Source: Terebella lapidaria (Eukaryota; Annelida; Polychaeta; Terebellida; Terebellidae). Taken from it: a DNA stretch of 64,000 nucleotides. This document shows, piece by piece, positions 36,720-55,507 of the stretch. The position numbers and the translations under genes are program-made. Every line of letters begins with the position of its first letter. Positions within the stretch are counted from its first letter, which is position 1. The DNA is taken from NCBI GenBank assembly GCA_949152475.1, contig OX424569.1, forward strand, positions 20,869,170 through 20,933,169, given 5' to 3'. The notes beneath the pieces were generated by a model. It did no database searches and had not been told where the DNA came from. It worked only from the letters and a program-made list of their open reading frames with translations.

Positions 36720-37060
36720 TTAAAAAAAAAAAAATCAGCACATGTTTTAGGAATAGATCAAGCGCTATAGGCATTCGACCGTGAGCTGCTGACACCTGGC
36801 GAATGCCTCGGGAAGCAAATTCCCAAAAAGGACCGGTTTGTTCATATGTATTCATGCGCACAGTAACAGCTCCAATCAACATGAAAACTCACATGTACAG
36901 AGAAAAATGTCTCTATTACAACAATACAACCTAAAACAGAGATATTTTAAAGCAATACCTGTGCATTTCGAGGAGGAACTGGGAGTTTTTAAATAATATG
37001 GTACTTTGATGCTCAAATCTGACGATATAAGGAAGTTGTATGTGATAAGTAACCTAAATT
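36720..37060. repeat. Dispersed 0.3-0.45-kb module shared by both tandem arrays
   Basis: The words 'gctgctgacacctggcgaa', 'gtattcatgcgcacagtaac' and 'gggagtttttaaataat' occur here and at about 30440-30840, 32105-32500, 33935-34330, 35765-36195, 40030-40480, 43000-43710, 46590-47040, 49540-50260 and 53130-53580. The module therefore links the 1.8-kb array and the 6.5-kb array and appears twice in each 6.5-kb unit. Confidence 0.8.
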
Positions 37061-37791
37061 GATATCAAAATCACATCAATTTGCTCAAAACTTGTATAAT
37101 TGTTCACAGACATATGTTTGTTGCAAATCCCATATCTTTTCCGATACAACTGGGAAATAAATAAGTTATGAACAGCCAAACAAGAGCACTCTCATAGAGA
37201 AAAACTGCTGGAAAATGTCTGAAAAAAGGGTTGGATCACCATAGGACAGGTTTATATACAGAAAGCATGTAATACAGGGTCCTAGTTATGAGTTTCTCAT
37301 ATGCATACATCATCTGACAAGTTAAAGACAACATTTTCATTTTTGTTAAAGGGGAAAAACATGCATATCAGTATATTTTATGTGCATACCCCCCAATTTG
37401 AAGCAAAATGAAGAATACACTTGACCAAGAAGTTATACTAAACTGGAGATAAATCAAACTTTGGTAGTACACTGATGACATGTTGTAATATAATCACCAA
37501 AATTTCCCAGCTTTTCTCTTGAAGACACTGAAAGAATGGAACTAATACCAACAGTGAGGGTCGGTCATCGGCTCCGTTCTGTCTGCTGAGGGGTCAGCCC
37601 CCCTGCAGGAGCCTGTCTGGAAAAGGTCTATTTAAGCACAGGGTTTTGTGTTAGAAATCAGTTATACATTTATATGTTCATGAGCATTGAATGAAAGTCA
37701 AATTTGTCTTAGTTTTGAGGAAAAAATCTGTATTCTGTGTGATTAACATAATCAAAGTTGCCAAAAAAAGGCAAAAAGCACCCATTTCCAG

Positions 37792-38791
37792 TTGGGAAAC
37801 ACAGTTTCAAAAACATTCTGGGAAAATCAGCATGGGAAAGTTGATTCTAAAAATAATGGTAATCTTCCTAGGTATGTGAGGATGACCAGTGAGCAGTATG
37901 GTGACCTTGTGATAGCTAAAAGTGATGGGACTCTCAGCCTGGTTGATGTTGATGGAAATCCAGCATCCAGATGTGAAATCCAGATGTGAAGCGGCAATGT
38001 GCCAGGACATTCAACCTCTGTTATGAGGCATGTGTTGAAGTCAACAAAATGGTATGCCAACTCACCTATGCCACAGATGCAATGGTGGAGTGCTACAATG
38101 ACAATCACACACTCTGACGACGTGGGAAATCCTACACATGTGGAGGAAACAAGAAAAGACTATGGAACAAGCCCATTTTGCCGCATGGATACAAACTGTG
38201 CATGACAGAAGTTTACAAACAGTATCTGCGACAGTGCATCAGCTACAAACTGGACCGAAAAGCAGTTCTTGCTCAAAGATTCAATACCAACACCCAAAAA
38301 GTAGAATCTGTGAATCGCTCAGATATTTCAACTAACCCGAAGTGTGTCACCATGACGCGAAACTTCCCTGGCCGAATTCATGCAGCTGTACACAAGGTGA
38401 ACAATGGACCTGGAGTGTGACAGCTCTGCTGCTGGAGGGGGTCGGTGCTCCTTTACACAGGTCCTCAAAGATCCACAAGCAGCTGAGGAGTGAAGACAGG
38501 CAGGCTCAAAAACAGAAGGACTATGAAAAAACAGTAGTATGTAAACAAAACAGAGTCAAAAATGTTTTGAGAAACTTCTCAACCTATGACAACAAGGTCA
38601 AGAGCAGTGGTGTTGTGTGTAAATACAAAAAAGGCATGCATGATAAAAATCTAGACACTGATTACTGTTATTCAAAATTAAAACAAAATATTTACCGTAC
38701 ATCTACCTATAGAATGCAAGGTGGCATATTTGAGCAAGCCAAATTGTTGTTGAGTGTAGAACATGTTATTCTAGACATATTAGTTGCATGA
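37792..38791 (+). pseudogene. Transposase-like coding fossil, unit 1
   Basis: Translated pieces in order are RYVRMTSEQYGDLVIAKSDG, LSLVDVDGNP, then QCARTFNLCYEACVEVNKM, ATDAMVECYNDNHTL, HGYKLCMTEVYKQYLRQCIS, NPKCVTMTRNFPGRIHAAVH, and a basic tail HRSSKIHKQLRSEDRQAQKQ...STYD. About three breaks separate these pieces and are shared by all three units. The order (Cys/Asn-rich region, then a Lys/Arg-rich tail) is like the C-terminal part of transposase-like proteins common in marine invertebrates; I suspect the Mutator-like group but cannot confirm it. Confidence 0.45.
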
Positions 38792-39026
38792 TCCTCAGCT
38801 GTGAGGTGCTGTACATTTACACATAACTTATTGTTACAGAGACGTGAAATTTCCAAATGTGCGATGTCTTCAAATGAATGAATTTGCTTGTCCAACATAT
38901 AAATAAACGGATGTAGATGAGTTCTTTGGGAAAGCAACATTAACTGAGAAGTATCCATCAGCTTTAGATGAAGCACCAATATATTTTCTGCATCCTTTAT
39001 CATTACAAATTTCAGTTTTCAACATA

Positions 39027-39865
39027 TAGTCGGGCATGTACGGGGGGTCCCTTTGCACCTCTCCATGATCCTCCATAACCAACTTTTTTCTCAAGGTTTT
39101 TTAATACTAAAAAACATTACATATGTCTCCGGTTGCGCATCCATTGCAAAAATTGGTTTTTGGGGTGTTTTTAGCAGGCATCTTGGATTTATGTTAATTA
39201 ACAAAACTAACCAAATGAAGCTCTATTTGTTCAAGGATTTATTGGGATTGCAAATCAGTAAAAGTCTCTATCAGAAATATCCAAGCAAGATCCACAATTG
39301 AGACCATAGGGGTATCAATGGGGCTATGTTCGAGAGATATCTAAATGAATATGTAGCGTGTACCATGTGTGCAGGTGTACATGCATCAAAAGAAATAGCT
39401 TGATTGTATTTATTTTGGTCTAAATGGATTCCCTGTATATGAAAACCTAGGTATAGACCCCAAAATGAACATCCTAGGTTGACTGAGTCCGAAGTTATGG
39501 ACATTTTAGTGAAAAATTATCTAAATTTGGTGGCCATCTTGGATTTATGGACATATTCATGTTATAAATATTTATTTAACAACTGTTTTCTCATGTCCAA
39601 GTATCAGGCCCCTACAATAAGCAGAAAAAGGTAACAAAGATTTTATTTTGTAGACCTATGCAGCCTAAAGTGAAGCAATCTCAAAATTCGAGATTTCGCG
39701 GGGCGACCATTTTAAAAAATTGCCCGAAAACCAATTTTTGCAATGGATGCGCAACCGGAGACATATGTAATGTTTTTTAGTATTAAAAAACCTTGAGAAA
39801 AAAGTTGGTTTTGGAGGATCATGGGGGGGGGGTGCAAAAAGACCCCCCCCGTACATGCCGGACTA
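39027..39865. mobile_element. TIR MITE (TAGTCNGGCATGTACGGGG ends), unit 1, long arms
   Basis: The left end TAGTCGGGCATGTACGGGG (39027) and right end CCCCGTACATGCCGGACTA (to 39865) are inverted. In this unit the inverted arms extend about 140 bp, including 'ggttgcgcatccattgcaa' and its reverse complement. Flanks end and start in ATA; a TA target is possible. No coding capacity is visible. Confidence 0.75.
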
Positions 39866-40537
39866 ATATATTTCAAACAAAGTTGTGCACAATATTGCTC
39901 AAAAATATCCATTTTGCCAGAAGAAGTCACTTTTTGGGATATGTCCAAACGTAAACAACAATTGTTACCATAGAAACCATTTCAAGGCAGCCCATAGCAA
40001 AATTTCATTTTTGGTTGAGGTTACCTGACACATATAGAAATGCCATTTAACTCCATTATAAAGTTTTATGAGATATTTCCCTTTCAGAATGTTTCAATCT
40101 TCATAAAATTTCAGTATGTTAGAGCAAGTTATACTACTTACAAAATATAAAAAAATAAGCACATGTTTTAGGAATAGATCAAGCGCTATAGGCATTTGAC
40201 CATGAGCTGCTGACATCTGGCGAATGCCTCGGAAAGCAAATCTCCAGAAAGCGCCGGTTTGTTCATATGTATTCATGCGCACAGTAACAGCTCCAATCAA
40301 CATGAAAACTCACATGTACAGAGCAAAAATGCCTCTATTACAACAATACAACCTAAAACAGAGATATTTTAAAGCAATACCTGTGCATTTTGAGGCGGAA
40401 CTGGGAGTTTTTAAATAATATAGTTCTTTGATGCTCAAATCTGACGATATAAGGAAGTTATATGTGATAAGTAACCTAATGTGGTCGGGATTGATAGCCT
40501 GTGCCAGCATTACATCTGCGAGCAGGAGGCATGGTTC

Positions 40538-41065
40538 CTACAGCCGACGGTCAAAGCGTCGTCTGGAGGTGCGAAGGTCCTCGAGAAGATGTCCGAGAGT
40601 GTTAGCTCCGGGCCATTCTGTGCTCGGTCGGTTGGCTGTGTCTTTGGGGGAGCAGATGGGATGCCCAGAACAAGCTGCGAGTTGCCTCAACAATTCTCCT
40701 ATCTTGTGAGTCCATCAGTCTCTGACGGAACTCCGGGCATGTGTCAAACTTCACGTCCAAGATGTCGCGCATGACGTTCACTCGAATGTTGTGCCATTCA
40801 GACACTTCCTGTTGGTCTAGTGAGTCACCGAGATTCTTGGCATCAATTGGCTCCGATGCGTCGTAAATCTTGGCTGCAACGTCGGGTCTTTCCATATAAG
40901 GTGCAAAGCCTTCTGATACTGGTAGCAGTGTTCTGCTGTGCGGAAGAGTTGGTCATCCCAATCAATCAAGGCTGGGAAGAAATTTGATAGTGGGTTCCTC
41001 TCTCCACGGAATATTTCTAGATCTGTAGTGTTAAGGTGGTCCTGACAGGCTATGTTATTTTGCAC
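40538..41065 (-). pseudogene. NADAR (YbiA-like) domain fossil, unit 1
   Basis: NADAR proteins are N-glycosidases acting on ADP-ribose-type or riboflavin-pathway substrates. The minus-strand pieces read FRGERNPLSNFFPALIDWDD, FRTAEHCYQYQKALH, VAAKIYDASEPIDAKNLGDS, WHNIRVNVMRDILDVKFDTC, RRIVEATRSLFWAS, then PKDTANRPSTEWPGANTLGH and LLEDLRTSRRRF to a stop at 40538. These cover the whole domain: the FRG..PLSNF start, the SAEH/TAEH-Y-Q-KA motif, and the FWA and N-LG-LL--LR end. About two frame breaks separate the pieces. The neighbours are all repeats, so it is probably element-borne or captured. Confidence 0.8.
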
Positions 41066-41568
41066 TGGTCAGTATAATAAAGATGTTTTGAACTTGAACT
41101 ACAAAAAGTAAATTGCAAATAACAAAGGCAAATTGGTAATTCCAGAAAAGTAAATTCATAAATACAAAAACTAAATTCGGAATTATTTTGTGCAAATTGC
41201 TAAATAAAAAGGTAAATTAAAAAAAGGCAAAAAAAAGTCAACTTGGTGGAAATAAGCCACCGTAGGTCACTAGTTTTTGGGACTATCCCCTTGCCGGGAA
41301 ATACAGTCACGCTCATAGGCCTACATGTACTATGTGTTTCATAAGTGTGAGGTATTGGATTTTTGACAAGTGATTTTTTTTGACAAGCGAAAAAATACAG
41401 ACTCGTCACAAACCTGATCTATAAGGTTTCGGAACACACATGGCACTCACAAACAAACAAACATGTCACAAACAAACGTAGTCTAATTGCCGCACGCAAA
41501 TTAGTTATCAAATATATCTGCTATGGGCCATGGCTATAATTGGGTCAAAATAAAGACATACCGGTAGG

Positions 41569-41800
41569 CAGGGCCGTACCACTGGTTTTTGAAATGGGGG
41601 GGGGGGAGGGGGGGAGAGGGGGGGAGTGATCAATCCGGCAGGGGGTTAGGCCCCCAGAAACTCAAGCATCTTATGTGGACTATGGTGCATTTTAGGGGCT
41701 GTATGTCCATGTGGGAAATGAGATCATGTGTGAAATATTGACCGCCCAGCAACATCTGCAGGGGCGGATCCAGGATTTTGCAATGGGAGAGGAGCTTCGC
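41569..41800. mobile_element. hAT-like MITE ends, unit 1
   Basis: CAGGGCCGTACCACTGG (41569) is followed by a G-rich tract (41597-41627), and CAGGGGCGGATCCAGGATTT lies at 41759. Both starts resemble the CAGGG-type termini of hAT-group MITEs; a similar end occurs in inverse orientation at 57219-57234. Right ends and 8-bp duplications were not identified, so these may be fragments. Equivalent sequences lie at about 48130-48360 and 54670-54900. Confidence 0.5.
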
Positions 41801-42640
41801 AAATATCAGAGACAATGCATATGGACGTGGGGGCTGGGGTTCGCTCAATGCCCCAGAAAATTCGGATAATAGTTTCTCTGTGTGTGTTTTGAGCATATAT
41901 TGAGACCAAGATTGAGTTATTTATAAGGTGTATATGGCGAAAAAGAATACCGTACATGTTGATGCATTTGAAGACCCTCATTGAGCCGAACAGAACAGTT
42001 TTTAGATTTTTAGAGTTTATTTCAAATGTGCACTGTAGCAAATAATTTCATATACATGTAACAATACAATACAATAATACATGGCTGCTGCACATTCATG
42101 GAAGCCACGGGAGACAATTGTCTGTAACACGCGAGTGCCGTGACTTCCATACAGATAAATTATAGCATATAATACATATTACACAGACAGGAACAATGAC
42201 ATTAATGACGAATAACTTATATGTAAGTCCCTAGTATAAGTACACGGAGGACATGGCAGATAAGGGATGATGAAGGACCAAGCTCTGGTAAGAATAGTAG
42301 TTACAGAGTGATGTTTGGGTTTTTCATTGCAACTAGGTAAAAGTGTAATGTGCTCCGGGGTTAATGCACTGTAAAGAGGTGGTTGAGAAAGCTCCCATCT
42401 TGACTAAGTTTAACTTCAAGCTACTGATGCGAGATCATTAAACAGCTGAGATTCAGAGAGTGTATACAACATTTAAAATTCGAAAAAACTACATAGTGGG
42501 CATATAAAACAGTGACACATTATACGGCTATAATGTACTAGCAGTTGACACTGGTTAATATGAGCTCAGGAGATGGTTCGAGAATTGTCTTTTGAGGATG
42601 GCTTTCGACAAGGACGTCCTTACGGAAGACCGTTAGTGCC

Positions 42641-42738
42641 AGGTGTGAAAATATATTTAAGTGGCGGCCGCCAGATAATTATGTGGCGGCCGCCAGATAA
42701 TTATGTGGCGGCCGCCAGATAAATATATTTTCACACCT
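42641..42738. repeat. 98-bp palindrome with three TGGCGGCCGCCA cores, unit 1
   Basis: The outer arms AGGTGTGAAAATATATTTA and TAAATATATTTTCACACCT are perfect inverted copies. Between them the 12-bp self-palindrome TGGCGGCCGCCA occurs three times, spaced by 'gataattatg', itself nearly symmetric. Units 2 and 3 have only two cores. Confidence 0.9.
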
Positions 42739-42759
42739 TTCATTTTCTGGCCTCTACGG

Positions 42760-42833
42760 GCTTCCGTACGTCCCGATACGTTCATCAAGTGTTAGCCAAT
42801 AACGAGGGCAGGAATACAGAAAGCTCCTTTTCA
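42760..42833 (-). pseudogene. LINE ORF tail fragment at the tandem-unit junction
   Basis: The minus strand encodes RSFLYSCPRYWLTLDERIGT and YGSP, identical to the end of the CR1-like LINE frame at 55598-55676. It is followed at once by the next unit start. The same fragment recurs at 49300-49375. Confidence 0.75.
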
Positions 42834-43161
42834 GAAAGCTTCGTGGCACGCGAGCGCGGGGTGGACGTCTCGTGGATAGCAGCTGTGTTTTTCTGTGGGC
42901 GCCGTGGACGTGGGGTTTCTTTATGCACGGCCGCTGAAGTGATGGCTTGATCCACCTGATGGATGAGCTAGAGCAAGATATACAACTTAAAAAAAAAAAA
43001 TCAGCACATGTTTTAGGAATAGATCAAGCGCTATAGGCATTCGACCGTGAGCTGCTGACACCTGGCGAATGCCTCGGGAAGCAAATTCCCAAAAAGGGCC
43101 GGTTTGTTCATATGTATTCATGCGCACAGTAACAGCTCCAATCAACATGAAAACTCACATA

Positions 43162-43554
43162 TGTGACCTCGCTCCTACTAGCTTGGCTAGTGGGATATCC
43201 CTTTAGCTCACTTGGTAGAGCGTCGGTCTCAAAACGCAGAGATCGTGGGTTCAATCCCCGATCTGGGCAACGAATTTTCGGTTGTCACATTTGGCGCTGC
43301 GAGCAGGGTAGGTTAGTAGGGTGTAGTTAGGACATGTCCCCGGTGTGTAATGGATGTATTCCAGGGGATTAACAAATAAGGACACCCCACACATCGAGGA
43401 CGATGTGTCCCACCGCTGCCACCATATGTGACCTCGCTCCTACTAGCTTGGCTAGTGGGATATCCCTTTAGCTCACTTGGTAGAGCGTCGGTCTCAAAAC
43501 GCAGAGATCGTGGGTTCAATCCCCGATCTGGGCAACGAATTTTCGGTTGTCACA
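43162..43554 (+). mobile_element. TRIM (terminal-repeat retrotransposon in miniature), unit 2
   Basis: Two 128-bp LTRs (43162-43289 and 43427-43554), starting TGTGAC and ending GTCACA, look identical. The 137-bp internal part begins two bases after the first LTR with a primer-binding-like TGGCGCTGCGAGCAGGG. There is no coding region. The insertion lies in 'aactcacatgtacagag', intact in unit 1 (about 36886-36902), with an approximate 4-bp target duplication. The element looks whole and young. Each LTR contains a tRNA-like block. Confidence 0.75.
43202..43270 (+). promoter_or_regulatory. tRNA-like Pol III promoter block in the TRIM LTR
   Basis: TAGCTCACTTGGTAGAGC matches the A box and D arm of tRNA genes, and GGGTTCAATCCCC matches the B box and T arm, about 35 bp apart. 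The acceptor and anticodon stems pair poorly, so this is not called as a functional tRNA. The same block occurs in the second LTR (about 43467-43535) and in both LTRs of unit 3. Confidence 0.65.
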
Positions 43555-44455
43555 CATGTACAGAGTAAAATGTCTCTATTACAACAATACAACCTAAAAC
43601 AGAGATATTTTAAAGCAATACCTGTGCATTTTGAGGAGGAACTGGGAGTTTTTAAATAATATGGTACTTTGATGCTCAAATCTGACGATATAAGGAAGTT
43701 GTATGTGATAAGTAACCTAAATTGATATCAAAATCACATCAATTTGCTCAAAACTTGTATAATTGTTCACAGACATATGTTTGTTGCAAATCCCATATCT
43801 TTTCCGATACAACTGGGAAATAAATAAGTTATGAACAGCCAAACAAGAGCACTCTCATAGAGAAAAACTGCTGGAAAATGTCTGAAAAAAGGGTTGGATC
43901 ACCATAGGACAGGTTTATATACAGAAAGCATGTAATACAGGGTCCTAGTTATGAGTTTCTCATATGCATACATCATCTGACAAGTTAAAGACAACATTTT
44001 CATTTTTTGTTAAAGGGGAAAAACATGCATATCAGTATATTTTATGTGCATACCCCCCAATTTGAAGCAAAATGAAGAATACACTTGACCAAGAAGTTAT
44101 ACTAAACTGGAGATAAATCAAACTTTGGTAGTACACTGATGACATGTTGTAATATAATCACCAAAATTTCCCAGCTTTTCTCTTGAAGACACTGAAAGAA
44201 TGGAACTAATACCAACAGTGAGGGTCGGTCATCGGCTCCGTTCTGTCTGCTGAGGGGTCAGCCCCCCTGCAGGAGCCTGGCTGGAAAAGGTCTATTTAAG
44301 CACAGGGTTTTGTGTTAGAAATCAGTTATACATTTATATGTTCATGAGCATTGAATGAAAGTCAAATTCGTCTTAGTTTTGAGGAAAAAATCTGTATTCT
44401 GTGTGATTCACATAATCATGGTTGCCAAAAAAAGGCAAAAAGCACCCATTTCCAG

Positions 44456-45455
44456 CTGGGAAACACAGTTTCGAAAACATTCTGGGAAAATCAGCATGGG
44501 AAAGTTGATTCTAAAAATAATGGTAATCTTCCTAGGTATGTGAGGATGACCAGTGAGCAGTATGGTGACCTTGTGATAGCTAAAAGTGATGGGACTCTCA
44601 GCCTGGTTGATGTTGATGGAAATCCAGCATCCAGATGTGAAATCCAGATGTGAAGCGGCAATGTGCCAGGACATTCAACCTCTGTTATGAGGCATGTGTT
44701 GAAGTCAACAAAATGGTATGCCAACTCACCTATGCCACAGATGCAATGGTGGAGTGCTACAATGACAATCACACACTCTGACGACGTGGGAAATCCTACA
44801 CCTGTGGAGGAAACAAGAAAAGACTATGGAACAAGCCCCTTTTGCCGCATGGATACAAACTGTGCATGACAGAAGTTTACAAACAGTATCTGCGACAGTG
44901 CATCAGCTACAAACTGGACCGAAAAGCAGTTCTTGCTCAAAAATTCAATACCAACACCCAAAAAGTAGAATCTGTGAATCGCTCAGATATTTCAACTAAC
45001 CCGAAGTGTGTCACCATGACGCGAAACTTCCCTGGCCGAATTCATGCAGCTGTACACAAGGTGAACAATGGACCTGGAGTGTGACAGCTCTGCTGCTGGA
45101 GGGGGTCGGTGCTCCTTTACACAGGTCCTCAAAGATCCACAAGCAGCTGAGGAGTGAAGACAGGCAGGCTCAAAAACAGAAGGACTATGAAAAAACAGTA
45201 GTATGTAAACAAAGCAGAGTCAAAAATGTTTTGAGAAACTTCTCAACCTATGACAACAAGGTCAAGAGCAGTGGTGTTGTGTGTAAATACAAAAAAAGCA
45301 TGCATGATAAAAATCTAGACACTGATTACTGTTATTCAAAATTAAAACAAAATATTTACCGTACATCTACCTATAGAATGCAAGGTGGCATATTTGAGCA
45401 AGCCAAATTGTTGTTGAGTGTAGAACATGTTATTCTAGACATATTAGTTGCATGA
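44456..45455 (+). pseudogene. Transposase-like coding fossil, unit 2
   Basis: A near-identical copy of 37792-38791 with the same pieces and the same breaks. Small differences exist, for example KQSRVKN instead of KQNRVKN. Sharing of all breaks shows that decay preceded the tandem duplication. Confidence 0.45.
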
Positions 45456-45690
45456 TCCTCAGCTGTGAGGTGCTGTACATTTACACATAACTTATTGTTA
45501 CAGAGACGTGAAATTTCCAAATGTGCGATGTCTTCAAATGAATGAATTTGCTTGTCCAACATATAAATAAACGGATGTAGATGAGTTCTTTGGGAAAGCA
45601 ACATTAACTGAGAAGTATCCATCAGCTTTAGATGAAGCACCAATATATTTTCTGCATCCTTTATCATTACAAATTTCAGTTTTCAACATA

Positions 45691-46435
45691 TAGTCGGGCA
45701 TGTACGGGGGGTCCCTTTGCACCTCCCCATGATCCTCCAAAACCAACTTTTTTCTCAAGGTTTTTTAATACTAAAAAACATTACATATGTCTCCGGTTGC
45801 GCATCCATTGCAAAAATTGGTTTTTGGGGTGTTTTTAGCAGGCATCTTGGATTTATGTTAATTAACAAAACTAACCAAATGAAGCTCTATTTGTTCAAGG
45901 ATTTATTGGGATTGCAAATCAGTAAAAGTCTCTATCAGAAATATCCAAGCAAGATCCACAATTGAGACCATAGGGGTATCAATGGGGCTATGTTCGAGAG
46001 ATATCTAAATGAATATGTAGCGTGTACCATGTGTGCAGGTGTACATGCATCAAAAGAAATAGCTTGATTGTATTTATTTTGGTCTAAATGGATTCCCTGT
46101 ATATGAAAACCTAGGTATAGACCCCAAAATGAACATCCTAGGTTGACTGAGTCCGAAGTTATGGACATTTTAGTGAAAAATTATCTAAATTTGGTGGCCA
46201 TCTTGGATTTATGGACATATTCATGTTATAAATATTTATTTAACAACTGTTTTCTCATGTCCAAGTATCAGGCCCCTACAATAAGCAGAAAAAGGTAACA
46301 AAGATTTTATTTTGTAGACCTATGCAGCCTAAAGTGAAGCAATCTCAAAATTCGAGATTTCGCGGGGCGACCATTTTGAAAAATGGCCCGAAAAAACCAA
46401 TTTGCAAAGGGACCCCCCCCGTACATGCCGGACTA
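45691..46435. mobile_element. TIR MITE, unit 2, shortened right arm
   Basis: Same ends as 39027-39865, but the right arm keeps only about 30 bp of match before diverging. The missing stretch of roughly 95 bp is bounded by the short word TTGCA. Confidence 0.75.
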
Positions 46436-47098
46436 ATATATTTCAAATAAAGTTGTGCACAATATTGCTCAAAAATATCCATTTTGCCAGAAGAAGTCAC
46501 TTTTTGGGATATGTCCAAACGTAAACAACAATTGTTACCATAGAAACCATTTCAAGGCAGCCCATAGCAAAATTTCATTTTTGGTTGAGGTTACCTGACA
46601 CATATAGAAATGCCATTTAACTCCATTATAAAGTTTTATGAGAAATTTCCCTTTCAGAATGTTTCAATCTTCATAAAATTTCAGTATGTTAGAGCAAGTT
46701 ACAAAATATAAAAAAATAAGCACATGTTTTAGGAATAGATCAAGCGCTATAGGCATTTGACCATGAGCTGCTGACATCTGGCGAATGCCTCGGAAAGCAA
46801 ATCTCCAGAAAGCGCCGGTTTGTTCATATGTATTCATGCGCACAGTAACAGCTCCAATCAACATGAAAACTCACATGTACAGAGCAAAAATGCCTCTATT
46901 ACAACAATACAACCTAAAACAGAGATATTTTAAAGCAATACCTGTGCATTTTGAGGCGGAACTGGGAGTTTTTAAATAATATAGTTCTTTGATGCTCAAA
47001 TCTGACGATATAAGGAAGTTATATGTGATAAGTAACCTAATGTGGTCGGGATTGATAGCCTGTGCCAGCATTACATCTGCGAGCAGGAGGCATGGTTC

Positions 47099-47626
47099 CT
47101 ACAGCCGACGGTCAAAGCGTCGTCTGGAGGTGCGAAGGTCCTCGAGAAGATGTCCGAGAGTGTTAGCTCCGGGCCATTCTGTGCTCGGTCGGTTGGCTGT
47201 GTCTTTGGGGGAGCAGATGGGATGCCCAGAACAAGCTGCGAGTTGCCTCAACAATTCTCCTATCTTGTGAGTCCATCAGTCTCTGACGGAACTCCGGGCA
47301 TGTGTCAAACTTCACGTCCAAGATGTCGCGCATGACGTTCACTCGAATGTTGTGCCATTCAGACACTTCCTGTTGGTCTAGTGAGTCACCGAGATTCTTG
47401 GCATCAATTGGCTCCGATGCGTCGTAAATCTTGGCTGCAACGTCGGGTCTTTCCATATAAGGTGCAAAGCCTTCTGATACTGGTAGCAGTGTTCTGCTGT
47501 GCGGAAGAGTTGGTCATCCCAATCAATCAAGGCTGGGAAGAAATTTGATAGTGGGTTCCTCTCTCCACGGAATATTTCTAGATCTGTAGTGTTAAGGTGG
47601 TCCTGACAGGCTATGTTATTTTGCAC
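47099..47626 (-). pseudogene. NADAR (YbiA-like) domain fossil, unit 2
   Basis: Copy of 40538-41065 with the same domain pieces and the same breaks (TAEHCYQYQKALH, DAKNLGDS, WHNIRVNVMRDILDVKFDTC, FWAS). Confidence 0.8.
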
Positions 47627-49205
47627 TGGTCAGTATAATAAAGATGTTTTGAACTTGAACTACAAAAAGTAAATTGCAAATAACAAAGGCAAATTGGTAA
47701 TTCCAGAAAAGTAAATTCATAAATACAAAAACTAAATTCGGAATTATTTTGTGCAAATTGCTAAATAAAAAGGTAAATTAAAAAAAGGCAAAAAAAAGTC
47801 AACTTGGTGGAAATAAGCCACCGTAGGTCACTAGTTTTTGGGACTATCCCCTTGCCGGGAAATACAGTCACGCTCATAGGCCTACATGTACTATGTGTTT
47901 CATAAGTGTGAGGTATTGGATTTTTGACAAGTGATTTTTTTTGACAAGCGAAAAAATACAGACTCGTCACAAACCTGATCTATAAGGTTTCGGAACACAC
48001 ATGGCACTCACAAACAAACAAACATGTCACAAACAAACGTAGTCTAATTGCCGCACGCAAATTAGTTATCAAATATATCTGCTATGGGCCATGGCTATAA
48101 TTGGGTCAAAATAAAGACATATCGGTAGGCAGGGCCGTACCACTGGTTTTTGAAATGGGGGGGGGGGGGGAGGGGGGGAGAGGGGGGGAGTGATCAATCC
48201 GGCAGGGGGTTTGGGCCCCCAGAAACTCAAGCATCTTATGTGGACTCTGGTGCATTTTAGGGGCTGTATATCCATGTGGGAAATGAGATCATGTGTGAAA
48301 TATTGACCGCCCAGCAACATCTGCAGGGGCGGATCCAGGATTTTGCAATGGGAGAGGAGCTTCGCAAATATCAGAGACAATGCATATGGACGTGGGGGCT
48401 GGGGTTCGCTCAATGCCCCAGAAAATTCGGATAATAGTTTCTCTGTGTGTGTTTTGAGCATATATTGAGACCAAGATTGAGTTATTTATAAGGTATATAT
48501 GGCGAAAAAGAATACCGTACATGTTGATGCATTTGAAGACCCTCATTGAGCCGAACAGAACAGTTTTTAGATTTTTAGAGTTTATTTCAAATGTGCACTG
48601 TAGCAAATAATTTCATATACATGTAACAATACAATACAATAATACATGGCTGCTGCACATTCATGGAAGCCACGGGAGACAATTGTCTGTAACACGCGAG
48701 TGCCGTGACTTCCATACAGATAAATTATAGCATATAATACATATTACACAGACAGGAACAATGACATTAATGACGAATAACTTATATGTAAGTCCCTAGT
48801 ATAAGTACACGGAGGACATGGCAGATAAGGGATGATGAAGGACCAAGCTCTGGTAAGAATAGTAGTTACAGAGTGATGTTTGGGTGTTTCATTGCAACTA
48901 GGTAAAAGTGTAATGTGCTCCGGGGTTAATGCACTGTAAAGAGGTGGTTGAGAAAGCTCCCATCTTGACTAAGTTTAACTTCAAGCTACTGATGCGAGAT
49001 CATTAAACAGCTGAGATTCAGAGAGTGTATACAACATTTAAAATTCGAAAAAACTACATAGTGGGCATATAAAACAGTGACACATTATACGGCTATAATG
49101 TACTAGCAGTTGACACTGGTTAATATGAGCTCAGGAGATGGTTCGAGAATTGTCTTTTGAGGATGGCTTTCGACAAGGACGTCCTTACGGAAGACCGTTA
49201 GTGCC

Positions 49206-49281
49206 AGGTGTGAAAATATATTTAAGTGGCGGCCGCCAGATAATTATGTGGCGGCCGCCAGATAAATATATTTTCACACCT
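49206..49281. repeat. 76-bp palindrome with two TGGCGGCCGCCA cores, unit 2
   Basis: Same outer arms as 42641-42738 but one core plus spacer fewer (22 bp shorter). Confidence 0.9.
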
Positions 49282-49703
49282 TTCATTTTCTGGCCTCTAC
49301 GGGCTTCCGTACGTCCCGATACGTTCATCAAGTGTTAGCCAATAACGAGGGCAGGAATACAGAAAGCTCCTTTTCAGAAAGCTTCGTGGCACGCGAGCGC
49401 GGGGTGGACGTCTCGTGGATAGCAGCTGTGTTTTTCTGTGGGCGCCGTGGACGTGGGGTTTCTTTATGCACGGCCGCTGAAGTGATGGCTTGATCCACCT
49501 GATGGATGAGCTAGAGCAAGATATACAACTTAAAAAAAAAAATCAGCACATGTTTTAGGAATAGATCAAGCGCTATAGGCATTCGACCGTGAGCTGCTGA
49601 CACCTGGCGAATGCCTCGGGAAGCAAATTCCCAAAAAGGGCCGGTTTGTTCATATGTATTCATGCGCACAGTAACAGCTCCAATCAACATGAAAACTCAC
49701 ATA

Positions 49704-50096
49704 TGTGACCTCGCTCCTACTAGCTTGGCTAGTGGGATATCCCTTTAGCTCACTTGGTAGAGCGTCGGTCTCAAAACGCAGAGATCGTGGGTTCAATCCC
49801 CGATCTGGGCAACGAATTTTCGGTTGTCACATTTGGCGCTGCGAGCAGGGTAGGTTGGTAGGGTGTAGTTAGGACATGTCCCCGGTGTGAAATGGATGTA
49901 TTCCAGGGGATTAACAAATAAGGACACCCCACACATCGAGGACGATGTGTCCCACCGCTGCCACCATATGTGACCTCGCTCCTACTAGCTTGGCTAGTGG
50001 GATATCCCTTTAGCTCACTTGGTAGAGCGTCGGTCTCAAAACGCAGAGATCGTGGGTTCAATCCCCGATCTGGGCAACGAATTTTCGGTTGTCACA
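49704..50096 (+). mobile_element. TRIM, unit 3
   Basis: LTRs lie at 49704-49831 and 49969-50096 and the internal part at 49832-49968. The site and structure are the same as in unit 2, so this is a duplicated copy and not a second insertion. Confidence 0.75.
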
Positions 50097-50997
50097 CATG
50101 TACAGAGAAAAATGTCTCTATTACAACAATACAACCTAAAACAGAGATATTTTAAAGCAATACCTGTGCATTTTGAGGAGGAACTGGGAGTTTTTAAATA
50201 ATATGGTACTTTGATGCTCAAATCTGACGATATAAGGAAGTTGTATGTGATAAGTAACCTAAATTGATATCAAAATCACATCAATTTGCTCAAAACTTGT
50301 ATAATTGTTCACAGACATATGTTTGTTGCAAATCCCATATCTTTTCCGATACAACTGGGAAATAAATAAGTTATGAACAGCCAAACAAGAGCACTCTCAT
50401 AGAGAAAAACTGCTGGAAAATGTCTGAAAAAAGGGTTGGATCACCATAGGACAGGTTTATATACAGAAAGCATGTAATACAGGGTCCTAGTTATGAGTTT
50501 CTCATATGCATACATCATCTGACAAGTTAAAGACAACATTTTCATTTTTTGTTAAAGGGGAAAAACATGCATATCAGTATATTTTATGTGCATACCCCCC
50601 AATTTGAAGCAAAATGAAGAATACACTTGACCAAGAAGTTATACTAAACTGGAGATAAATCAAACTTTGGTAGTACACTGATGACATGTTGTAATATAAT
50701 CACCAAAATTTCCCAGCTTTTCTCTTGAAGACACTGAAAGAATGGAACTAATACCAACAGTGAGGGTCGGTCATCGGCTCCGTTCTGTCTGCTGAGGGGT
50801 CAGCCCCCCTGCAGGAGCCTGGCTGGAAAAGGTCTATTTAAGCACAGGGTTTTGTGTTAGAAATCAGTTATACATTTATATGTTCATGAGCATTGAATGA
50901 AAGTCAAATTCGTCTTAGTTTTGAGGAAAAAATCTGTATTCTGTGTGATTCACATAATCATGGTTGCCAAAAAAAGGCAAAAAGCACCCATTTCCAG

Positions 50998-51997
50998 CTG
51001 GGAAACACAGTTTCGAAAACATTCTGGGAAAATCAGCATGGGAAAGTTGATTCTAAAAATAATGGTAATCTTCCTAGGTATGTGAGGATGACCAGTGAGC
51101 AGTATGGTGACCTTGTGATAGCTAAAAGTGATGGGACTCTCAGCCTGGTTGATGTTGATGGAAATCCAGCATCCAGATGTGAAATCCAGATGTGAAGCGG
51201 CAATGTGCCAGGACATTCAACCTCTGTTATGAGGCATGTGTTGAAGTCAACAAAATGGTATGCCAACTCACCTATGCCACAGATGCAATGGTGGAGTGCT
51301 ACAATGACAATCACACACTCTGACGACGTGGGAAATCCTACACCTGTGGAGGAAACAAGAAAAGACTATGGAACAAGCCCATTTTGCCGCATGGATACAA
51401 ACTGTGCATGACAGAAGTTTACAAACAGTATCTGCGACAGTGCATCAGCTACAAACTGGACCGAAAAGCAGTTCTTGCTCAAAGATTCAATACCAACACC
51501 CAAAAAGTAGAATCTGTGAATCGCTCAGATATTTCAACTAACCCGAAGTGTGTCACCATGACGCGAAACTTCCCTGGCCGAATTCATGCAGCTGTACACA
51601 AGGTGAACAATGGACCTGGAGTGTGACAGCTCTGCTGCTGGAGGGGGTCGGTGCTCCTTTACACAGGTCCTCAAAGATCCACAAGCAGCTGAGGAGTGAA
51701 GACAGGCAGGCTCAAAAACAGAAGGACTATGAAAAAACAGTAGTATGTAAACAAAACAGAGTCAAAAATGTTTTGAGAAACTTATCAACCTATGACAACA
51801 AGGTCAAGAGCAGTGGTGTTGTGTGTAAATACAAAAAAGGCATGCATGATAAAAATCTAGACACTGATTACTGTTATTCAAAATTAAAACAAAATATTTA
51901 CCGTACATCTACCTATAGAATGCAAGGTGGCATATTTGAGCAAGCCAAATTGTTGTTGAGTGTAGAACATGTTATTCTAGACATATTAGTTGCATGA
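50998..51997 (+). pseudogene. Transposase-like coding fossil, unit 3
   Basis: Third copy of the fossil at 37792-38791 with the same layout and breaks; one visible difference is NLSTYDN for NFSTYDN. Confidence 0.45.
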
Positions 51998-52232
51998 TCC
52001 TCAGCTGTGAGGTGCTGTACATTTACACATAACTTATTGTTACAGAGACGTGAAATTTCCAAATGTGCGATGTCTTCAAATGAATGAATTTGCTTGTCCA
52101 ACATATAAATAAACGGATGTAGATGAGTTCTTTGGGAAAGCAACATTAACTGAGAAGTATCCATCAGCTTTAGATGAAGCACCAATATATTTTCTGCATC
52201 CTTTATCATTACAAATTTCAGTTTTCAACATA

Positions 52233-52977
52233 TAGTCGGGCATGTACGGGGGGTCCCTTTGCACCTCCCCATGATCCTCCAAAACCAACTTTTTTCTCAA
52301 GGTTTTTTAATACTAAAAAACATTACATATGTCTCCGGTTGCGCATCCATTGCAAAAATTGGTTTTTGGGGTGTTTTTAGCAGGCATCTTGGATTTATGT
52401 TAATTAACAAAACTAACCAAATGAAGCTCTATTTGTTCAAGGATTTATTGGGATTGCAAATCAGTAAAAGTCTCTATCAGAAATATCCAAGCAAGATCCA
52501 CAATTGAGACCATAGGGGTATCAATGGGGCTATGTTCGAGAGATATCTAAATGAATATGTAGCGTGTACCATGTGTGCAGGTGTACATGCATCAAAAGAA
52601 ATAGCTTGATTGTATTTATTTTGGTCTAAATGGATTCCCTGTATATGAAAACCTAGGTATAGACCCCAAAATGAACATCCTAGGTTGACTGAGTCCGAAG
52701 TTATGGACATTTTAGTGAAAAATTATCTAAATTTGGTGGCCATCTTGGATTTATGGACATATTCATGTTATAAATATTTATTTAACAACTGTTTTCTCAT
52801 GTCCAAGTATCAGGCCCCTACAATAAGCAGAAAAAGGTAACAAAGATTTTATTTTGTAGACCTATGCAGCCTAAAGTGAAGCAATCTCAAAATTCGAGAT
52901 TTCGCGGGGCGACCATTTTGAAAAATGGCCCGAAAAAACCAATTTGCAAAGGGACCCCCCCCGTACATGCCGGACTA
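52233..52977. mobile_element. TIR MITE, unit 3, shortened right arm
   Basis: Same as the unit 2 copy (45691-46435), including the shortened right arm. Confidence 0.75.
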
Positions 52978-53640
52978 ATATATTTCAAATAAAGTTGTGC
53001 ACAATATTGCTCAAAAATATCCATTTTGCCAGAAGAAGTCACTTTTTGGGATATGTCCAAACGTAAACAACAATTGTTACCATAGAAACCATTTCAAGGC
53101 AGCCCATAGCAAAATTTCATTTTTGGTTGAGGTTACCTGACACATATAGAAATGCCATTTAACTCCATTATAAAGTTTTATGAGAAATTTCCCTTTCAGA
53201 ATGTTTCAATCTTCATAAAATTTCAGTATGTTAGAGCAAGTTACAAAATATAAAAAAATAAGCACATGTTTTAGGAATAGATCAAGCGCTATAGGCATTT
53301 GACCATGAGCTGCTGACATCTGGCGAATGCCTCGGAAAGCAAATCTCCAGAAAGCGCCGGTTTGTTCATATGTATTCATGCGCACAGTAACAGCTCCAAT
53401 CAACATGAAAACTCACATGTACAGAGCAAAAATGCCTCTATTACAACAATACAACCTAAAACAGAGATATTTTAAAGCAATACCTGTGCATTTTGAGGCG
53501 GAACTGGGAGTTTTTAAATAATATAGTTCTTTGATGCTCAAATCTGACGATATAAGGAAGTTATATGTGATAAGTAACCTAGTGTGGTCGGGATTGATAG
53601 CCTGTGTCAGCATTACATCTGCGAGCAGGAGGCATGGTTC

Positions 53641-54167
53641 CTACAGCCGACGGTCAAAGCGTCGTCTGGAGGTGCGAAGGTCCTCGAGAAGATGTCCGAG
53701 AGTGTTAGCTCCGGGCCATTCTGTGCTCGGTCGGTTGGCTGTGTCTTTGGGGGAGCAGATGGGATGCCCAGAACAAGCTGCGAGTTGCCTCAACAATTCT
53801 CCTATCTTGTGAGTCCATCAGTCTCTGACGGAACTCCGGGCATGTGTCAAACTTCACGTCCAAGATGTCGCGCATGACGTTCACTCGAAGTTGTGCCATT
53901 CAGACACTTCCTGTTGGTCTAGTGAGTCACCGAGATTCTTGGCATCAATTGGCTCCGATGCGTCGTAAATCTTGGCTGCAACGTCGGGTCTTTCCATATA
54001 GGGTGCAAAGCCTTCTGATACTGGTAGCAGTGTTCTGCTGTGCGGAAGAGTTGGTCATCCCAATCAATCAAGGCTGGGAAGAAATTTGATAGTGGGTTCC
54101 TCTCTCCACGGAATATTTCTAGATCTGTAGTGTTAAGGTGGTCCTGACAGGCTATGTTATTTTGCAC
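53641..54167 (-). pseudogene. NADAR (YbiA-like) domain fossil, unit 3
   Basis: Third copy of the NADAR fossil, one base shorter than the others and so with one further break; otherwise the same domain pieces. Confidence 0.8.
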
Positions 54168-55507
54168 TGGTCAGTATAATAAAGATGTTTTGAACTTGAA
54201 CTACAAAAAGTAAATTGCAAATAACAAAGGCAAATTGGTAATTCCAGAAAAGTAAATTCATAAATACAAAAACTAAATTCGGAATTATTTTGTGCAAATT
54301 GCTAAATAAAAAGGTAAATTAAAAAAAGGCAAAAAAAGTCAACTTGGTGGAAATAAGCCACCGTAGGTCACTAGTTTTTGGGACTATCCCCTTGCCGGGA
54401 AATACAGTCACGCTCATAGGCCTACATGTACTATGTGTTTCATAAGTGTGAGGTATTGGATTTTTGACAAGTGATTTTTTTTGACAAGCGAAAAAATACA
54501 GACTCGTCACAAACCTGATCTATAAGGTTTCGGAACACACATGGCACTCACAAACAAACAAACATGTCACAAACAAACGTAGTCTAATTGCCGCACGCAA
54601 ATTAGTTATCAAATATATCTGCTATGGGCCATGGCTATAATTGGGTCAAAATAAAGACATACCGGTAGGCGGGGCCGTACCACTGGTTTTTGAAATGGGG
54701 GGGGGGGGGGTGGAGGGGGGGGGGGAGTGATCAATCCGGCAGGGGGTTTGGGGCCCCAGAAACTCAAGCATCTTATGTGGACTCTGGTGCATTTTAGGGG
54801 CTGTATGTCCATGTGGGAAATGAGATCATGTGTGAAATATTGACCGCCCAGCAACATCTGCAGGGGCGGATCCAGGATTTTGCAATGGGAGAGGAGCTTC
54901 GCAAATATCAGAGACAATGCATATGGACGTGGGGGCTGGGGTTCGCTCAATGCCCCAGAAAATTCGGATAATAGTTTCTCTGTGTGTGTTTTGAGCATAT
55001 ATTGAGACCAAGATTGAGTTATTTATAAGGTATATATGGCGAAAAAGAATACCGTACATGTTGATGCATTTGAAGACCCTCATTGAGCCGAACAGAACAG
55101 TTTTTAGATTTTTAGAGTTTATTTCAAATGTGCACTGTAGCAAATAATTTCATATACATGTAACAATACAATACGATAATACATGGCTGCTGCACGTTCA
55201 TGGAAGCCACGGGAGACAATTGTCTGTAACACGCGAGTGCCTTGACTTCCATACAGATAAATTATAGCATATAATACATATTACACAGACAGGAACAATG
55301 ACATTAATGACGAATAACTTATATGTAAGTCCCTAGTATAAGTACACGGAGGACATGGCAGATAAGGGATGATGAAGGACCAAGCTCTGGTAAGAATAGT
55401 AGTTACAGAGTGATGTTTGGGTGTTTCATTGCAACTAGGTAAAAGTGTAATGTGCTCCGGGGTTAATGCACTGTAAAGAGGTGGTTGAGAAACCTCCCAT
55501 CTTGACT

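Follow-up and report, generated by a model that had tools for sequence, protein, structure and literature searches.

The window analysed here, a stretch of 64,000 nucleotides from the annelid Terebella lapidaria, contains a 393-bp element (43162–43554) that is very probably a TRIM of the Helenus, or TRIMp3, kind. Its RNA would be started by Pol III from a tRNA-like promoter in the LTR, its first DNA strand would be primed by tRNA-Ser, and its DNA would be integrated with a 4-bp target duplication. Based on the sequence, we further propose, as a tentative reading, that a second host tRNA (presumably tRNA-Leu) replaces the polypurine tract as the primer of the second strand, with tRNA-Ser priming the first. 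If this is true, an element of less than 400 bp would rely almost entirely on the host's tRNA machinery, that is, on a Pol III promoter and two tRNA primers.

Structure of the element and its target site

The layout given in the preliminary description was recovered in all its parts: two LTRs of 128 bp (TGTGAC...GTCACA), 137 bp between them, and an A box and a B box in each LTR. All parts of the element lie on the forward strand. The 5' LTR (43162–43289) contains a 38-nt cassette that is common to sibling families (43173–43210) and is part of an imperfect palindrome entering the A box (TAGCTCACTTGG, 43204–43215). The B box (GGTTCAATCCC, 43248–43258) starts 44 bp downstream of the start of the A box, and it is followed by TTTT (43275–43278), a possible leaky Pol III terminator. 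The 3' LTR (43427–43554) has the same sequence, with the cassette at 43438–43475, the A box at 43469–43480 and the B box at 43513–43523. Between the LTRs, a 2-nt spacer TT (43290–43291) leads to the primer-binding site (PBS) TGGCGCTGCGAGCAGGGT (43292–43309). At the other inner end, we find a predicted hairpin, CACATCG-AGGA-CGATGTG (43390–43407), then a 17-nt block that equals a tRNA 3' end with CCA and stands at the position of the polypurine tract (TCCCACCGCTGCCACCA, 43408–43424), and finally a 2-nt spacer TA (43425–43426). A repeat finder reported the LTR pair as identical at 132 of 132 positions, a length of 132 rather than 128 because CATA stands before both LTRs. With two LTRs in less than 1000 bp, the element has no room for genes of transposition enzymes.

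Tandem units of about 6.5 kb, one of them empty and two filled, make up part of the window (36890–55507). The unit at 36.9 kb, which lacks the element, reads ACTCACATGTACAG and has the empty target site CATG at 36892–36895; the filled site consists of ACTCACATA, the element and CATGTACAG. The element is a true insertion with a 4-bp duplication of CATG, whose right copy (43555–43558) is intact and whose left copy (43158–43161) later changed to CATA. A second copy at 49704–50096, on the same strand, differs at 2 of 393 positions and has identical flanks; these rule out an independent second insertion and mark it as a tandem duplicate. The tandem units at 39833–48970 and 46403–55507 are 99.2% identical. 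Thus, the element was inserted first and the unit was duplicated afterwards. As both filled units carry CATA, the change from CATG to CATA probably predates the duplication of the unit. The window also contains, at 42641–42739, three GTGGCGGCCGCCAGATAATTAT-like repeats between the arms GGTGTGAAAATATATTTA / TAAATATATTTTCACACC of an inverted repeat (by eye); this is probably a further small mobile element.

Copies of the family in the genome

A search of the genome (761.6 Mb, 438 contigs) gave at least 41 matches over the element, which is a lower bound, with 40 of 605 candidates scored. The pattern from the B box to TTTT occurs at 74 places with up to two mismatches. Two near-full LTRs spanning the tRNA-like block are present at 39 of 40 loci, the exception being L048 with one per element. 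This excludes the possibility that a separate SINE was inserted in the window copy only. The inner region is common to the copies as well (40 matches scored of 64 candidates), and an exact 4-bp target duplication flanks 25 of the 42 distinct paired-LTR rows. Together with the eight rows that have one mismatch in the duplication, 33 of 42 have at most one; the remaining nine have two to four mismatches and include truncated and tandem copies, and the duplication of L015 is 5 bp long. Among the distinct single-LTR rows, the duplication is exact in 9 of 22, and several others are LTRs joined to inner sequence. The preliminary description had proposed an animal TRIM with a tRNA-like promoter in its LTR and had named two observations that would speak against it: a tRNA-like block inserted as a separate SINE in this copy only, or copies without a shared inner region and target duplications. 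Its reading survives both comparisons and is supported by the sequences of the copies.

In the 35 copies that we compared, the two LTRs of an element differ at 0–18 of 118–128 compared sites, and they are identical in five. This mixture of identical and diverged pairs indicates that some copies are young and others old. The 35 copies are the 43 aligned rows minus four tandem duplicates and minus the late-found copies L055, L098, L100 and L101 (359–413 bp), with L034 (383 bp) and L045 (414 bp) retained; four paired-LTR rows (two of L048, L067 and L099) were omitted before the alignment.

The repeated tRNA-like boxes might also be read as a tandem or dimeric SINE, in which two tRNA-headed units plus a spacer were moved by a LINE. 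Each unit does have tRNA-like boxes, but such an arrangement accounts neither for an exact PBS with its spacer nor for 4-bp target duplications and a difference of precisely 393 bp from the empty site. Young copies moreover have identical repeat pairs, and single LTRs occur with duplications. We therefore give a dimeric SINE almost no weight and regard the element as an LTR element.

Some loci have a more complex structure. In L062 and L099, inner sequence flanks an LTR on both sides, or pairs overlap, and these are probable tandem TRIM copies. At C3:14806273/14809989 and C11:11630412/11634878, apparent long elements bounded by LTRs of this family were rejected: they are solo or partial copies that have been duplicated and whose flanks are identical.

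Two contigs carry mitochondrial genes. Translated with the code of invertebrate mitochondria, one strand of the small contig C438 encodes (all by Pfam) nad3, a Proton_antipo_M gene, cox1, cox2 and the start of cox3. The Proton_antipo_M gene is nad2 by place and length. At the place of atp8 there is a short open frame that Pfam does not recognise, and the approximately 130 nt before cox3 are too small for atp6. In the annelid mitochondrial pattern described in PMC2639372, nad1 and nad2 flank nad3, and atp6 stands between cob and nad5. From the genes of C438, among which neither nad1 nor atp6 was seen, we take the host to be most likely an annelid. Another COX1, split into two pieces and with an internal TGA, lies at C417:44633–46450 (L104, L105), separate from the mitochondrial C438, and may come from a foreign mitochondrial genome (symbiont or contaminant).

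The putative promoter block and the cassette shared with sibling families

We scanned both strands of the window for paired A and B boxes, allowing one mismatch per box. Four pairs were detected; each is on the forward strand and lies in an LTR of one of the two element copies. In simulated windows (first-order Markov, forward strand only), one chance pair appeared in 2 of 20. ARAGORN called no tRNA in the window, and the covariance-model check suggested earlier came out negative, with cmscan of 43100–43620 yielding no tRNA family up to E 5. The block is therefore tRNA-like in its boxes and spacing only, and these empty results rule it out as a functional tRNA. On the LTR strand, the predicted fold is more stable than that of shuffled sequences (z −5.06). 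From the boxes, we infer a Pol III promoter in each LTR. TTTT stands in the context AATTTTCG, which is preserved in the 5' LTRs of 38 copies and in the 3' LTRs of 33 copies out of 43; by eye, no TTTT was seen in the LTRs of the siblings L111, L113 and L114. Since the first TTTT already lies in the 5' LTR, a full-length Pol III RNA would require read-through.

The cassette also occurs outside the window family. Its 23-nt core, GCTTGGCTAGTGGGATATCCCTT, is present at 599 places in the genome with up to two mismatches and at none in the reversed control, compared with 142 places for the A-box pattern of the window family with up to three mismatches. Among the 100 core matches listed, many are paired at distances of 285–288 or 229–231 bp (by eye). 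The whole 38-nt cassette, TCCTACTAGCTTGGCTAGTGGGATATCCCTTTAGCTCA, is identical in L111–L115 and the window element and has one change in L108. As L111–L115 were picked via the exact core, only the other 15 nt count as independent agreement. Three of these loci (L111, L113 and L114) form one family, whose PBS, in the usual forward place, pairs with the second tRNA, the one that matches the 17-nt block of the window family; target duplications are TATG in L111 and TTGA in L113. L112 belongs to a separate family with an ordinary purine tract and a PBS that resembles what we take to be tRNA-Lys, and L115 is a single copy. L108, which was located by its PBS, has the tRNA-Ser PBS joined to an L113-like inner region and LTR (by eye). 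Near their 3' ends, at a similar place, the siblings have a hairpin motif TCG..GGA..CGA with other stems (by eye), and in L111 this hairpin differs from the predicted structure.

On the basis of these sequences, at least three families with different PBSs share the 38-nt putative promoter cassette. One Pol III cassette would thus serve families that prime their first strands differently. Viral contigs, scanned for exact matches to 32 nt of the cassette, gave none. In the window element (43175–43218), as in L111–L115, the cassette is part of an imperfect 44-nt palindrome centred on GATATC, the upstream half of which looks like an A box on the opposite strand (by eye).

The first-strand primer and a candidate partner

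The PBS TGGCGCTGCGAGCAGGGT, 2 nt past the LTR, is complementary at 18 of 18 positions to the 3'-terminal 15 nt of the host tRNA-Ser(CGA) gene with CCA added, which answers the question raised earlier of which tRNA 3' end pairs with this site. ARAGORN recognised tRNA-Ser(CGA) in 10 of the 12 loci analysed, out of 30. Across the 43 aligned copies, the PBS is exact in 31, with one mismatch in ten and two in two. A large tandem array of tRNA-Ser genes with a period of about 2.7 kb lies at C8:39013444–39129968.

The same PBS occurs exactly at 12 places beyond the copies of the window family, and we examined five of these, the sibling L108 among them. L107 (C5:20502349) has an LTR of about 356 bp (by eye), TGTGACC...TTGTCACA, which is followed by TT and the same 18-nt tRNA-Ser PBS. 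It thus resembles the window element in its LTR ends, spacer and PBS, whereas its LTR lacks the cassette (by eye) and its inner sequence differs past the PBS. A coding piece downstream matches proteases with E 0.0057 and 0.024, both below the curated Pfam cut-off; it gave no integrase match and nothing in PDB beyond chance. From its sequence, we regard L107 as a candidate autonomous partner only. The same PBS is also present in L106, L109 and L110, which form a further LTR family.

The tRNA 3' end at the position of the polypurine tract

In standard LTR retrotransposition, the second strand is begun from a polypurine tract that resists RNase H. The window family has no such tract: within the 20 nt that precede the 3' LTR, no purine run exceeds 1 nt. 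In siblings, the longest runs are 13 nt in L112, 5 nt in L111 and 8 nt in L113. In the window family, this position is taken by the 17-nt block, which is the end of GGTTCGAATCCCACCGCTGCCA plus CCA and is followed by TA and the 3' LTR, so that the 2-nt spacer at this junction mirrors the 2-nt TT at the PBS. By our estimate, the probability that 17 nt at a given position agree by chance with any of about 60 tRNA ends (an assumed number) is about 3.5e-9. Among the 43 aligned copies, 33 have an exact block, nine have a single mismatch in it and one has lost it.

We take the second tRNA, whose 22-nt 3' end is GGTTCGAATCCCACCGCTGCCA, to be tRNA-Leu. This 3' end occurs at 232 places in the genome with up to one mismatch, and most of the 100 matches listed lie in one array on C5. 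The array, at C5:24323895–24356788, is a large tandem array of this 3' end. Among 116 loci examined, none was a gene of the second tRNA. The pattern of the block plus TATGT was absent, with up to two mismatches, near L107 and near L106, L109 and L110 (the matches listed are complete for C1–C7). Seven exact places of this pattern (e.g. C4:21242128 and C366:51108) are unmatched to copies of the family. None of them is among the 51 places at which the longer pattern occurs, so they lie outside the family context; they may be ordinary Leu-primed elements seen from the opposite strand. A literature search for tRNA-primed second strands, two PBSs or missing polypurine tracts gave no case recognisable by title and start of abstract, and the word tRNA is absent from the available part of a review on plus-strand synthesis (PMC3185511).

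The layout can also be read as that of a two-way element, in which the block is the ordinary PBS of the opposite strand, the sense RNA is primed by tRNA-Ser and the antisense RNA by tRNA-Leu, and either strand may be genomic. Several features point in this direction. The layout is nearly symmetric, with TGTGAC/GTCACA ends and, at both inner ends, a 2-nt spacer plus a tRNA site; L111, L113 and L114 have the Leu site in the normal forward place; and the cassette is part of an imperfect palindrome. However, A and B boxes are paired on the forward strand only although both strands were scanned, so that no promoter is evident for Pol III transcription of the other strand, and in either direction a polypurine tract for the second strand would still be missing. 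We thus consider a two-way element unlikely.

Sequence constraint among the copies

We distinguished private changes, found in at most 2 of 35 copies, from shared variants, found in at least 4 of 35, which probably arose in source elements. Private changes are about equally frequent in all seven regions (1.5–2.0% per site), and they do not separate the cassette, PBS, hairpin and block taken together (58/3290) from the middle of the element (57/2825, p 0.51). Shared variants are distributed differently: they affect 9 of 81 sites in the middle, 3 of 60 from the A to the B box (one inside the B box) and 2 of 28 elsewhere in the LTR, and none of the sites on the cassette side (0/40), in the spacer and PBS (0/20), in the hairpin (0/17) or in the block (0/17). 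The stretch from the A to the B box is without special constraint. For the cassette, PBS, hairpin and block together, the difference from the middle is significant (0/94 vs 9/81, Fisher 0.0008), and p stays between 0.0003 and 0.0089 with thresholds of 3 to 5 and 35 or 39 copies. The corresponding values are 0.037 (range 0.025–0.12) for the hairpin plus block and 0.17 (range 0.07–0.31) for the block alone. Both the regions and the threshold of this test were chosen after the data had been seen, so the constraint on the block itself is suggestive only.

The insignificant result for the block alone would fit a further reading, in which the block is a fossil that was acquired from a Leu-primed element by recombination or template switching and has no role, and an unrecognised sequence primes the second strand. 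In its favour, the same tRNA end borders ...CCACCAATTGT, like the forward PBS of L111, L113 and L114, at about 30 of the 100 matches listed (140 in total), and L108 illustrates the swapping of a PBS between families (by eye). A sequence without a role would nevertheless have landed exactly at the LTR junction, complete with CCA and a 2-nt spacer, and it would have remained exact in most copies (33/43), with no variant common to three or more of them. The family has also amplified, yet no purine tract lies nearby. A fossil block therefore appears doubtful to us, and we tentatively prefer the reading in which tRNA-Leu primes the second strand.

Proposed replication of the element

By analogy with Cassandra and judging from the position of the boxes, Pol III would start slightly upstream of the A box of the 5' LTR, pass the TTTT there and stop in or after the 3' LTR, yielding an RNA with the tRNA-like block at both ends. 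Next, tRNA-Ser would anneal to the PBS, with which its 3' end pairs perfectly, and a reverse transcriptase, presumably supplied by a Ty3/Gypsy-type element, would make the first strand. The second strand must begin 2 nt before the 3' LTR, where the first-strand DNA offers a 17-nt site for tRNA-Leu. The 3' end of this tRNA would extend straight into the LTR, with the plus strand starting at TATGTGAC, a step that we put forward as possible and with less confidence than the others. Trimming of two nucleotides per end by an integrase would then yield the observed LTR ends, and the integrase would insert the DNA with the 4-bp target duplication that is seen in the copies. As the family has multiplied without a polypurine tract and has a perfect tRNA 3' end exactly there, it would make an alternative priming of the plus strand directly testable in a naturally occurring element.

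Comparison with known elements

The preliminary description had presented an animal TRIM with a tRNA-like promoter as a design parallel to Cassandra. Such a design has precedents in animals: Helenus elements, which are TRIMs with tRNA-derived sequence in their LTRs and for which the class TRIMp3 was proposed, have been described from fungi, plants and six animal phyla (Kojima 2024, PMC10886601). According to the main text of that study, Helenus is designated by the presence in both LTRs of tRNA-derived sequence that includes A and B boxes, animal copies have 4-bp duplications, and tRNA-Ser is among the primers in bivalves. By Kojima's designation, the window element is of the Helenus type, a likeness that rests on the published description and on the features of its sequence: size, A and B boxes in both LTRs, a PBS for a tRNA 3' end, 4-bp duplications and solo LTRs. 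The polypurine tract is a listed part of the Helenus structure, whereas the window element has a tRNA 3' end there; since the tract is missing, we class it as a variant working like Helenus. The word annelid is absent from the main text of PMC10886601, and a literature search recognised no tRNA-promoted TRIM of annelids by title or start of abstract. Annelids are thus most likely an added animal phylum for tRNA-promoted TRIMs.

Two other systems are comparable. Cassandra, whose transcription is established (PMC10886601), is likewise a TRIM with a Pol III promoter in its LTR, as the sequence suggests here, but it is found in plants and uses 5S rRNA instead of tRNA-like sequence. The biv-TRIM of bivalves (PMC6934838) is an animal TRIM with solo repeats and tandem arrangement like the window element; in contrast, it possesses a purine tract of 7 bp and lacks an unambiguous PBS, and the available part of its description makes no mention of a tRNA-like LTR. 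Compared with the published description of Helenus, the window element appears to add two features: a 38-nt cassette that is shared across families with different PBSs, and a tRNA 3' end instead of the polypurine tract.
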